From assembly GCF_029953305.1 (NCBI RefSeq), contig NZ_JASBAN010000001.1, positions 1,008,501 to 1,072,500 of the forward strand: a stretch of DNA of 64,000 nucleotides. Direction: 5' to 3'. Shown here piece after piece: positions 13,380 through 61,656 of the stretch (the stretch's first letter is position 1; the number at the start of each line of letters is the position of its first letter). A program made the position numbers and the translations under genes. The notes under the pieces were generated by a model that was not told where the DNA came from, did not search any database, and saw nothing but the letters and a program-made list of their open reading frames with translations. The stretch is from Commensalibacter nepenthis. Its GTDB lineage: Bacteria; Pseudomonadota; Alphaproteobacteria; Acetobacterales; Acetobacteraceae.

Positions 13380-14015
13380 ATGAACCACTTAAAAGATTTT
13401 CATCCGCGATCTTTCGACATTGCAAGCAACGAAAGTGACCTTCAATATTATACAAAGCACTCTGTTCCTCCTATGCTGGATCAAGGTGGTTATAAGGCAG
13501 TCGAAGCCTTATATCACACTCTGATACAAGAAAGCGATACTATTCTTGACCTAATGTGTGGTGCGGACAGCCATTTACCAACAAATGCGACCTATCAAAA
13601 CCTCATTGGTATTGATTTAAATCCGCAAGCATTAAAAGAAAATACTGCCCTAACTCGCAAAATTACACAAGATATTAACGATAAAACAGATCTGCCTTTG
13701 AAAGATAATAGCGTTGATTATCTTTGTTTATGCTGTGTATTTGAATATCTGCGTCATCCGTTTGCCACACTAGAGGAATGCTTACGCATCTTAAAACCTA
13801 GTGGTCGGATCATTATTTCTTTTACCACCCGATTTTTGCCTTTACGTGCCACGGCTTTGTGGCAAGCGTTAGAGAGTCAAGATCGTCAAGGGTTGGTCAA
13901 AGTATTGTTGACCCGCGCAGGCTTTACCGACTGCGACCAAGGTGAAGTCTATCCACCCGAAGATCAAAGCGTGTGGAAAGATCCGATTTATAGTGTGGTG
14001 GCGAGGAAAGCTTAA
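13380..14015 (+). CDS. Class I SAM-dependent methyltransferase, substrate unknown
   Basis: The 211-residue protein has the Rossmann-type methyltransferase core: a motif I variant ILDLMCGADSH near residues 57-67, acidic IGIDLN at the end of strand 2, DNSVDYLCLCCVFEYL as motif II and ILKPSGRIIISF as motif III. Motif I lacks the usual GxGxG (it reads MCGAD), as in some Methyltransf_11 proteins. It stands alone on the plus strand, with a palindromic IS-derived element 17 bp after its stop. The substrate cannot be inferred. Confidence 0.75.
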   Translation: MNHLKDFHPRSFDIASNESDLQYYTKHSVPPMLDQGGYKAVEALYHTLIQESDTILDLMCGADSHLPTNATYQNLIGIDLNPQALKENTALTRKITQDINDKTDLPLKDNSVDYLCLCCVFEYLRHPFATLEECLRILKPSGRIIISFTTRFLPLRATALWQALESQDRQGLVKVLLTRAGFTDCDQGEVYPPEDQSVWKDPIYSVVARKA

Positions 14016-14032
14016 AACTCATATTATGAAAA

Positions 14033-14101
14033 TGTAAGAATTGATCGCGTTGTTTACAGTGATATGGAATATTACTGTAAACAACGCGATCAATTCTTAC
14101 A
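14033..14101 (+). mobile_element. 69-bp palindromic MITE derived from the IS at 60689-61560
   Basis: A perfect 28-bp inverted repeat (14033-14060 and 14074-14101) surrounds a 13-nt centre. The ends begin TGTA and end TACA like the IS ends. From the left end through the inner CTGTAA it copies the first 48 bp of the IS with few differences, then jumps straight to the right end. Its length equals the 872-bp IS minus the 803 bp between the two CTGTAA repeats. It lies between convergent genes and could fold as a strong RNA hairpin. Confidence 0.85.
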
Positions 14102-14106
14102 AATAA

Positions 14107-14138
14107 GAAAAGCTCTTTTTAATCAGGGCTTTTCTTTT
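14107..14138. terminator. Intrinsic terminator between the methyltransferase and lyxose isomerase genes
   Basis: GAAAAGC (14107-14113) pairs with GCTTTTC (14128-14134), followed by TTTT. It begins 5 nt after the end of the MITE and separates convergent transcripts. Confidence 0.6.
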
Positions 14139-14147
14139 GTTCAATAT

Positions 14148-14831
14148 TTATTTAGCGTTGGGATATTCTGTGCATAACAAACGATAAGGTGCTTCGTCCT
14201 CTTCAATTTTTGGAAAACGCCCCATTTCTTCATAAAAACGATTATCATGTTCATCATCATTACACATGGAAACTTCGCCAAGTAAAACAGGCCCCGTTCC
14301 TTTTTTAATCTCAAAATCATGATACATATAAGGATAAACAGTAATGCTTTCCCCTGGTGTTAATTTGACCTGAGAACCTGCTGGAACTTCTCTTTCACGA
14401 CCATCACAGTGAACTTTGACTGGATTGACTTTATCCAATTCTCCATCTTTGGTAGAATTATACACACGAATTAAGACATTCCCACCACCACGATTAATAA
14501 TGTCTTCCATCTTGTTCCAATGGAAATGCATAGGGGAATATTGACTTTCTTCTAAATAAAGTAATTTCTCTGCATATGTTTTCGTATATTTTTTATTTTT
14601 TAAATTACCATTCCGTAATGTTATTAATGAAAAGCCAATCTTGTTAAAATCCCCTTTGCCATAATCTGTGACATCCCAGCCTAATAAATTATCGCGAATC
14701 TCATCATATTCATGGTTTTTATCCGCCCAATCTTTGGGGGTAAAATGACAAAATGGTGGCAAAGAAAAGCCAACTTTTTCAATCATTCCTTCCATTGCTT
14801 TGATCGCACGATTAATTTCTGAGCGTTTCAT
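14148..14831 (-). CDS. D-lyxose/D-mannose ketol-isomerase (cupin)
   Basis: The 227-residue cupin-fold protein matches D-lyxose isomerase, which interconverts D-lyxose with D-xylulose and D-mannose with D-fructose using a divalent metal. Metal ligands are visible in MHFHWNKMEDI (two His and one Glu) and in the second cupin motif PYMYHDFEI. The Shine-Dalgarno GGAGT lies 6 nt before the ATG. Single gene. The family assignment is from the overall pattern; the preferred sugar is not certain. Confidence 0.85.
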   Translation of the reverse strand: MKRSEINRAIKAMEGMIEKVGFSLPPFCHFTPKDWADKNHEYDEIRDNLLGWDVTDYGKGDFNKIGFSLITLRNGNLKNKKYTKTYAEKLLYLEESQYSPMHFHWNKMEDIINRGGGNVLIRVYNSTKDGELDKVNPVKVHCDGREREVPAGSQVKLTPGESITVYPYMYHDFEIKKGTGPVLLGEVSMCNDDEHDNRFYEEMGRFPKIEEDEAPYRLLCTEYPNAK

Positions 14832-54965: not shown

Positions 54966-55040
54966 TGTAGGAATGGATCGCGCTGTTTACAGTAATATTC
55001 CATATCACTATCACTGTAAACAACGCGATCAATTCCTACA
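54966..55040 (-). mobile_element. 75-bp palindromic MITE, second copy, inverted orientation
   Basis: Arms 54966-54993 and 55013-55040 form a 28-bp inverted repeat with two mismatches. The 19-nt centre, read on the minus strand, is the same as in the 69-bp copy plus a 6-nt duplication (GATAGT before GATATGG). It ends in TGTAGG/CCTACA, matching the left end of the IS more closely than the 69-bp copy does. It sits between convergent cobT and the DUF4432 gene. Confidence 0.83.
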
Positions 55041-60688: not shown

Positions 60689-61560
60689 TGTAGGAATTGG
60701 TCGCGTTGTTTACAGTGATATGGAATATTACTGTAATGAACATACATAGAAAAACGAAGCTTACGTTGTATCATCGAGAGGAGATATGGCGATTATATCA
60801 TCAAGAGAAAGTCACGATAACGGATCTGGCTAAGCGTTTTATGGTCAGCAGACCTACGATTTATGTTGTATTAAGGCGAGCTCGGTTGCAATTATTTGTG
60901 CCGATGTCCAGCACAAATGAACGTTATAAAACAATCAAATATGGCATTAAACGCCTTGCTAAGATTGAAAAAACACTTGAGGACAAGCTCAGACGGCAAG
61001 CCAAAAAATATAACAACTCTTATCCTGGGGAGATGGTGCATGTTGATACAAAACGGCTTCCTTTGTTAAAAAATGAGACTAAACAGCAAACTCGGGAGTA
61101 TCTTTTTGTAGGTATTGATGATTTTTCTCGAGAACGCTATGCAGGGATTTACAACGATAAATCTCAGTTTAGTGCAGCTCAGTTCCTACAAGACGATGTG
61201 CAGGTTCAATGCCCTTATACGATCGAATGTGTTTACTTTGACAATGGCAGAGAATACCAAGGAACGCTTGAACATCTGTTTGTTAAATCTTGTTATACCA
61301 ATCGGATTAACCAGAAATTTACCAAGCCAGCTTGCCCTCAAACCAATGGCAAAGCAGAGCGCGTCATTCGCACACTCATGGAAATGTGGCATGAGCGTGA
61401 ATTGTTCGTCAATGCTCAGGATCGAAAGTTAAAGTTGAAACGATTTATTAATTATTATAACATTGTTAAACCTCATAAAGGCATTCAAGGAAAAACACCC
61501 TATGAGGTTTTAGATGGTTATTTTAAACAAAATCTGTAAACGACGCGATTAATTCTTACA
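60689..61560 (+). mobile_element. Complete 872-bp insertion sequence, IS481-like
   Basis: Terminal inverted repeats at 60689-60715 and 61534-61560 match at 23 of 27 positions and begin TGTA. One intact transposase gene fills the interior. The left end also contains the short inverted repeat TTACAGT...ACTGTAA around the centre shared with the MITEs. No clear target-site duplication is visible (left flank CTTAAGG, right flank GATTATA). It lies between the aminotransferase pair and tRNA-fMet/rRNA. Confidence 0.85.
60736..61539 (+). CDS. DDE transposase, IS481-like
   Basis: About 267 residues. An N-terminal helix-turn-helix (REEIWRLYHQEKVTITDLAK, then SRPTIYVVLRRARL) is followed by an RNase-H-type integrase core. 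The catalytic acids are Asp in MVHVDTKRL, Asp in VYFDNGREYQ and Glu in NGKAERVIRTL. The C-terminus has the integrase FINYYNIVKPHKGI. The ATG overlaps the last base of the left CTGTAA and the stop TAA is the end of the right CTGTAA. An in-frame TTG at 60697 lies inside the terminal repeat and is not used. Intact, so probably active. Confidence 0.88.
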   Translation: MNIHRKTKLTLYHREEIWRLYHQEKVTITDLAKRFMVSRPTIYVVLRRARLQLFVPMSSTNERYKTIKYGIKRLAKIEKTLEDKLRRQAKKYNNSYPGEMVHVDTKRLPLLKNETKQQTREYLFVGIDDFSRERYAGIYNDKSQFSAAQFLQDDVQVQCPYTIECVYFDNGREYQGTLEHLFVKSCYTNRINQKFTKPACPQTNGKAERVIRTLMEMWHERELFVNAQDRKLKLKRFINYYNIVKPHKGIQGKTPYEVLDGYFKQNL

Positions 61561-61579
61561 GATTATACATGTATTTGAT

Positions 61580-61656
<77 letters not shown>

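Follow-up and report, generated by a model that had tools for sequence, protein, structure and literature searches.

The birth of MITEs is often inferred from single remnants. A transposon can lose its interior by the nearly precise excision known from Tn10-type elements, which leaves a short remnant of both ends and is independent of transposase and RecA. For a Tn10-related transposon, the relevant section of PMC12524634, citing d'Alencon et al., ascribes this excision to copy choice between short direct repeats. The locus described here resembles the Tn10-type case, as presented there, in that an interior is lost between short direct repeats lying near inverted repeats; it differs in that the repeats are furnished by a start-codon palindrome and by the right terminal inverted repeat (TIR), that the remnant keeps both complete terminal repeats, and that the same junction is found in natural genomes of at least two genera. 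The bacterial MITEs derived from insertion sequences (ISs) by internal deletion provide a second precedent. Ours are likewise short and gene-less and have both TIRs in common with a resident IS, but their one junction is set by the architecture of the IS and occurs in different genera, and their arms covary in the genome studied. A third is quasipalindrome mutation by template switching, a process that makes and mends hairpins and in which, according to PMC8794818, one arm is copied onto the other with compensatory changes; here, as judged from sequence, the process would have left such changes in MITE arms and in the start-codon palindrome of four full IS copies. Finally, the element recalls the IS481 family in its rve-type transposase, single gene and inverted repeats, and departs from it in its length of 872 bp, in scoring below the NCBIfam cut-off and in the 7-bp NNTNANN duplication of its best-preserved relative, most IS481 members having a 6-bp duplication according to the pertinent part of PMC10045372. 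A search of open-licence papers found no literature on MITEs of this IS.

The window analyzed is a stretch of 64,000 nucleotides of the Commensalibacter nepenthis genome (contig NZ_JASBAN010000001.1, positions 1,008,501 to 1,072,500); its features are collected in Table 1 along with same-junction MITEs from elsewhere. We took the ATG at 60736 as the transposase start, the open reading frame as listed beginning at an upstream TTG. The protein matches the Pfam profile rve_3 above its cut-off. Its top NCBIfam match is NF033577 (transpos_IS481; E=1.5e-51), with a score of 175.6 bits that lies below the cut-off of 224 and an alignment that spans only profile positions 104-283 of 284. Putative DDE residues, assigned their roles by eye, are D104, D169 and E208, found in VHVD, YFDNG and KAER, with 38 residues between the second and the third. 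The element has terminal inverted repeats (27 bp), as IS481 members do, and the 7-bp target duplication lies within the 2-15 bp that PMC10045372 gives for this family. Among nine genomes of the genus searched, the transposase is present only in G000 and G023, the latter having one copy with an internal TGA. Relatives with 44-89% identity (L106-L127) come from Parcubacteria and Jacksonbacteria bins, Neisseria, Moraxella, Acinetobacter, Gilliamella and Ignatzschineria, a wide taxonomic spread that probably reflects horizontal transfer.

Table 1. Features of the insertion sequence and of the MITEs sharing its deletion junction
Feature	Location	Strand	Remarks
IS481-like insertion sequence	60689..61560	+	872 bp, TGT...ACA ends; at least 15 two-ended copies in genome
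Left terminal inverted repeat, 27 bp	60689..60715	+	TGTAGGAATTGGTCGCGTTGTTTACAG
Right terminal inverted repeat, 27 bp	61534..61560	+	Inverted, TGTAAGAATTAATCGCGTCGTTTACAG; 4 mismatches to left repeat
Transposase gene, 267 aa, rve-type	60736..61539	+	Assigned by profile matches
Start-codon palindrome TTACAG...CTGTAA	60710..60736	+	Adjoins start codon; predicted RNA fold of left 50 bases, -11.0 kcal/mol
CTGTAA, copy 1	60731..60736	+	Inner palindrome arm; last A is the A of the ATG at 60736
CTGTAA, copy 2	61534..61539	+	Inner end of right terminal inverted repeat; TAA is the stop codon
MITE, 69 bp	14033..14101	+	Arms identical (27/27); predicted RNA hairpin of 33 pairs, -48.6 kcal/mol
Second MITE, 75 bp	54966..55040	-	Same junction plus 6-bp tandem duplication (GTGATA) in loop
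Same-junction MITE L239	G100 C19:129302		
Same-junction MITE L242	G100 C35:111696		
Same-junction MITE L243	G100 C35:118976		
Same-junction MITE L179	G006 C95:834		

The initial annotation of this DNA had drawn attention to two CTGTAA repeats, one overlapping the start codon of the transposase gene and one ending in its stop codon. Both are read directly in the sequence, and they do bracket the gene; what the comparison with relatives alters is the cause of the bracketing. We surveyed 19 of the 22 transposase loci and found a palindromic left end in 13 (L106-L112, L115-L117, L119, L122 and L123). In these, TIR sequence ending in TTTACAGT is followed by a loop and an ACTG-like inner arm, with the ATG within a few bases, the layout being degenerate in some (L116, for example). 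Five of the remaining loci are rearranged, cut off at the left end or without a palindrome, and L114 has a longer-looped version. The loop contains GGAG, which is Shine-Dalgarno-like, in two Ignatzschineria, in Gilliamella Choc4-2 and in Neisseria elongata. One may speculate that the palindrome influences how the transposase is translated. At the other end of the relatives, the right TIR starts within the last codons and supplies the stop codon. The combination of gene, palindrome and right-TIR stop codon also characterizes elements from Gilliamella, Ignatzschineria, Moraxella, Acinetobacter and Neisseria. Because both complement the inner left TIR sequence, the palindrome's inner arm and the right TIR necessarily form partial direct repeats. 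Their common length varies: 6 bp here (CTGTAA), 5 bp in most Gilliamella copies (TGTAA), TGT in most of the Ignatzschineria family and mostly TG in Neisseriaceae and Moraxella. The bracketing thus follows from a start-codon palindrome combined with a stop codon inside the right TIR, and not from repeats placed there by coincidence.

The layout of the relatives also bears on the order of events. One could envision, as the initial annotation did in passing, that a MITE came first and captured a transposase; the MITE would have been palindromic, the gene would have entered it in the middle, and the CTGTAA repeats would be the scar left behind. The gene does lie between direct repeats, as after an insertion with a 6-bp duplication, and the right ends of the Commensalibacter IS read CTGTAAAC, with the base typical of a left end, in contrast to the GTGTAAA of the other relatives whose right end could be read. 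We find this scenario scarcely credible all the same, given that the arrangement of gene and palindrome is common to relatives in families where no MITE was recognized, and is thus independent of MITEs, and that among genomes with pattern matches a MITE was found in only 2 of 14 in the Orbaceae and 1 of 23 in the Neisseriaceae.

A whole-genome search with the IS ends, suggested in the initial annotation as a check, found at least 15 two-ended IS copies, 835-873 bp long, and at least 11 two-ended copies devoid of the gene; one of these 11 measures 75 bp and the others 69 bp. These numbers are minima from scoring the best 40 of 54 and the best 40 of 72 first-look candidates. Also present are further IS pieces (one with the right TIR destroyed, two at contig ends and about 12 one-ended), a truncated MITE, a half MITE and a remnant. 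Being short and gene-less, and having both TIRs of an autonomous element of the same genome, the 11 copies of 69-75 bp qualify as MITEs. All 11 have their junction at the palindrome; the junction 12-mer ATTACTGTAAAC is exact in eight and has one substitution in the other three. A deletion from one repeat to the other had been calculated to remove 803 bp (61534-60731) and to leave 69 of the 872 bp, the length and junction of the element at 14033-14101; we arrive at the same figures, the computed product differing from that element at 4 of 69 positions. The element at 54966-55040, absent from the initial annotation, is the sole 75-bp copy among the 11.

The 6-mer alone is weak evidence, since CTGTAA is commoner in the window (65 occurrences) than shuffles predict (30.6). 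When up to 3 mismatches are allowed, the 17-base inner TIR sequence is found at 6 places in the window, where 0.15 would be expected. Chance repeats, considered as an explanation, are ruled out by the number of copies with the same junction, though CTGTAA itself is common. Six of the 15 IS copies carry deletions of 9-36 bp elsewhere in the element, and the one junction is seen only for complete gene loss, not for partial deletions. Two observations had been named in advance as speaking against an origin by deletion. The first, junctions elsewhere in the element, was made in the Orbaceae for partial gene loss (14 two-ended rows with other, smaller internal deletions, some of them the same site in two genomes), and never for complete loss. 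A candidate second junction in the Gilliamella remnants L173, L181 and L224 was discarded, their common flanks pointing to one old insertion. The second, MITEs much older or more diverse than the IS, finds no support in the mean pairwise differences, which are 0.081 for the left arms of 11 MITEs against 0.071 for 15 IS, and 0.121 for right arms against 0.096 for 14 IS.

Exact target duplications are well preserved in an Ignatzschineria-family genome (G204) in which a related IS has expanded (L298-L323; 41 left ends): 19 of the 20 copies examined have exact 7-bp duplications, all of the form NNTNANN, with T3 and A5 invariant in 19/19. In the present genome an exact 7-bp duplication was found in 2 of 15 IS and in none of 11 MITEs. 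The flanks fit NNTNANN on 20 of 30 IS sides against a background of 0.135, and on 13 of 22 MITE sides against a background of 0.122 (p=2e-7), so that IS and MITE ends sit at true insertion sites. The two 7-mers that adjoin the window IS, CTTAAGG at one end and GATTATA at the other end, fit as well. The unmatched sides of most copies look as after recombination between copies or adjacent deletions, both of which are named as causes of unmatched flanks in PMC11708052.

Several rearranged neighbourhoods were encountered along the way. No clean empty site for the 14033 MITE was found in four congeners; its flanks (window 13633-14501) lie about 1.6-2.9 kb apart in G022, G023, G025 and G026, so that this MITE marks the point of a deletion or rearrangement. 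The sequence that follows the window IS on its right (61561-61656, beside a tRNA-Met gene) recurs at C1:1465666, C1:1608112 and C1:953809, where an IS copy or remnant adjoins it with either the left or the right IS end facing the flank. The outer TIR sequence TGTAAGAATTAATCGCG travels with this flank, which looks like exchange between repeated neighbourhoods. Plasmid matches to the IS region were set aside: among the best 20 of 435 records, the match is to the neighbouring tRNA stretch and not to the IS. A repeat with TTTGCGACAAGACC (or a close variant or its complement) abuts or truncates IS copies at C1:1117065, 1077567, 1159399, 1120842, 1588331 and 139246, and is probably a second mobile repeat.

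A junction repeated within one genome could simply be inherited. If a single founder MITE had been spread by the IS transposase, one would expect what is seen in Commensalibacter, namely 11 copies with one junction, flanks that fit the target motif and, by exact-pattern search, no MITE in eight congeners. By eye, no private variant is common to the ten aligned MITEs, whose sequences are short, and inheritance leaves unexplained why the same junction is found in Gilliamella together with Gilliamella loops and right ends. For Commensalibacter itself we come close to accepting a single founder, while leaning slightly against it. Spread within one genome is in any event compatible with recurrence between genera.

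The 44 genomes of the Gilliamella family contain four MITEs with the same junction (Table 1), and the loop of each is also found in IS left ends of that family. They were recognized among 10 places of a first search, of which L144, L147, L148 and L149 look unrelated. L143 and L150, from two Gilliamella-family genomes, represent a second short palindromic element with a similar loop and different ends. The pattern search returned 67 rows, about 50 of them IS left ends as judged by the loop. Left and right ends can be told apart in Gilliamella (TGTAGAAATTCCTCGCGTTGTTTACAG and TGTAGGAAAACGCCGAGTTGTTTACAC are examples): IS right ends read GTGTAAA, in a search allowing C or G there, and left inner arms mostly CTGTAATG. 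L239 and L242/L243 read CTGTAAAC, with a left-type C before TGTAA and a right-type AC after it, the product expected from deletion within TGTAA. The arms were typed by comparing their outer 17 bases with 45 left and 15 right distinct Orbaceae ends. By this measure the L239 right arm is identical to a right end, its closest left end being 5 mismatches away; the right arm of L242/L243 has 1 mismatch to the closest right end and 5 to the closest left end. The left arms of L239 and L242/L243 differ from a left end by 3 and 2 mismatches, and from a right end by 9 and 4. Hence, in these three MITEs the junction lies within the direct repeat, one copy is kept, and the flanking bases come from each side, which is not the case in L179. 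L242 and L243 have about 17 bp of right flank in common. As loop and arms differ between L239 and L242/L243, we count them as two births, apparently independent. By joining left arm to right arm at TGTAA, they bear out the original proposal that deletion between the repeats accounts for the MITE.

L179 does not conform to this proposal as a complete account, since plain deletion does not give its two left-type arms. For its right arm, the closest left end is 4 mismatches away and the closest right end 7, and the two arms of L179 disagree at 3 of 27 positions. A MITE of this kind might have arisen from the left end only, duplicated in inverted form: a nascent strand that had reached the inner arm would fold onto the outer arm and copy the left end outwards, the right end being uninvolved. 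Such fold-back would yield identical arms at birth. It might also help with the Neisseriaceae, where one MITE (L287) exists though left ends mostly lack the TGTAA repeat (ACTG is followed by AAACATG, CCATG or CATG). Typed against 21 left and 13 right ends, itself excluded, L287 is equivocal: its right arm leans left, with 3 mismatches to the closest left end against 5 to the closest right end, and its left arm has 3 to each. As a general origin we judge fold-back improbable, for the right arms of L239, L242 and L243 are right-type, three Commensalibacter MITEs have 3-6 arm mismatches, and fold-back alone leaves the gene at the locus. In Commensalibacter, the two ends resemble each other too closely for deletion and fold-back to be distinguished.

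The 83 Neisseriaceae genomes gave 108 rows in 23 genomes, comprising the one MITE (two rows) and about 104 IS left ends as judged by the loop. No MITE was recognized in the Ignatzschineria family (18 genomes; 49 rows, of which a single genome accounts for 41) or in Moraxellaceae (299 genomes of a larger group; 43 rows, about 21 of them IS-like by loop), a MITE there being one place matched on both strands, so that MITEs with altered arms would escape. A trend of MITE occurrence with repeat length is suggestive, MITE counts depending on amplification as well.

Deletion between two inverted ends had also been expected, in the initial annotation, to explain why the MITEs are near-perfect palindromes. 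This expectation needs revision. Arm-arm mismatches number 10 in L239, 5 in L242, 3 (of 27) in L179 and 5 in L287; a MITE that is newborn or uncorrected can therefore be a poor palindrome. In the 11 Commensalibacter MITEs (0, 2, 0, 0, 4, 1, 3, 6, 1, 1 and 2 mismatches), the total of 20 compares with 29.1 when arms are paired at random (p=0.0006, 20,000 shuffles), whereas the 15 IS copies have 37 against 35.7 (p=0.75). This test left aside IS 178280 (right TIR destroyed), both C11 contig-end copies, all one-ended copies, the truncated MITE 338579, the half MITE 1212823 and the remnant 1465666. Position 12 is A/A, T/T or G/G in 8 of 11 MITEs, while the arms match there in only 5 of 15 IS, and MITE 586197 carries private changes at positions 4 and 15, both of which are present on its two arms. 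In ten of the MITEs (the 75-bp copy omitted), and with shuffles that ignore relatedness, two-sided compensatory cells number 7 against 1.8 (0/500 shuffles), pairs with a two-sided change 4 against 1.2 (1/500), and the covariation score is 0.099 against 0.065 (0/500); further pair types are not raised (12 against 10.8; 123/500). The arms of the MITEs covary and the IS ends do not, so the palindromes are not simply inherited from the two ends of the IS. Arm identity in Commensalibacter thus needs a second process beyond deletion, the covariation implying either copying from arm to arm or selection on the hairpin.

Selection would apply if the hairpin served as a two-way terminator or as an RNA-processing site between convergent genes. 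The strength of the predicted RNA stem (Table 1) is in keeping with such a function, as is the location of the MITEs: 7 of 12 lie between convergent genes against 2 of 15 IS (Fisher p=0.037), and 0 of 12 against 5 of 15 between divergent genes (Fisher p=0.047), counting one truncated MITE and taking as genes all open reading frames of at least 80 codons. Both MITEs of the window are flanked by convergent open reading frames. These are small numbers and two tests on one table, and a convergent location may reflect terminator use or mere tolerance. Moreover, selection on the hairpin leaves unexplained two matches found elsewhere. Four full IS copies have a G20A change in the left arm together with the inner arm CTGTAAATAAC, an exact 11-bp complement of that left arm, in place of the usual CTGTAATGAAC. 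They do not form a clean clade and two have their left flank in common, so that they may represent one event spread by recombination. The second match is in L242/L243, where the inner 14 bp, CGATTTGTTTACAG, are common to both arms while the outer halves remain left- and right-type. We thus regard selection as unlikely to be what keeps the arms identical, without dismissing it.

We think it likely, if well short of certain, that the MITEs are gene-less IS copies generated by palindrome-guided slippage, followed by template switching that aligns the arms. In this scheme, replication would slip from the inner arm of the palindrome (CTGTAA or TGTAA) to the identical sequence in the right TIR. The inner arm and the right TIR can both pair with the outer left arm (TTTACAG), which would offer a polymerase two equivalent landing sites on a single strand. 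Slippage between them would remove exactly the transposase gene, and both ends would survive in a hairpin of about 69 bp. One arm would then be copied from the other by template switching inside this hairpin, making or keeping the arms alike and producing the covariation. In at least one case, that of Gilliamella G006, the second arm may have arisen outright when the left end was copied by fold-back. The resulting MITEs would be moved in trans by the transposase of the IS.

Known principles, slippage between short direct repeats near palindromes and quasipalindrome correction, account for these steps; what appears to be new is their combination as a recurrent, architecture-set route from IS to MITE. 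With more doubt than conviction, we propose that the IS has a built-in route of miniaturization, by which the same 69-bp MITE is reborn in unrelated bacteria, more often where the repeat is longer, and kept palindromic by template switching. Rather than a single remnant, the system offers parent IS and product MITE side by side, the junction again in another genus, where bases are diagnostic of left and right ends, and relatives with shorter repeats as a natural comparison. If the proposal is true, the anatomy of an IS would allow MITE birth to be predicted, a simple reporter would suffice to measure it, and the compensatory changes in MITE hairpins that are usually attributed to structural selection could be a by-product of template switching.
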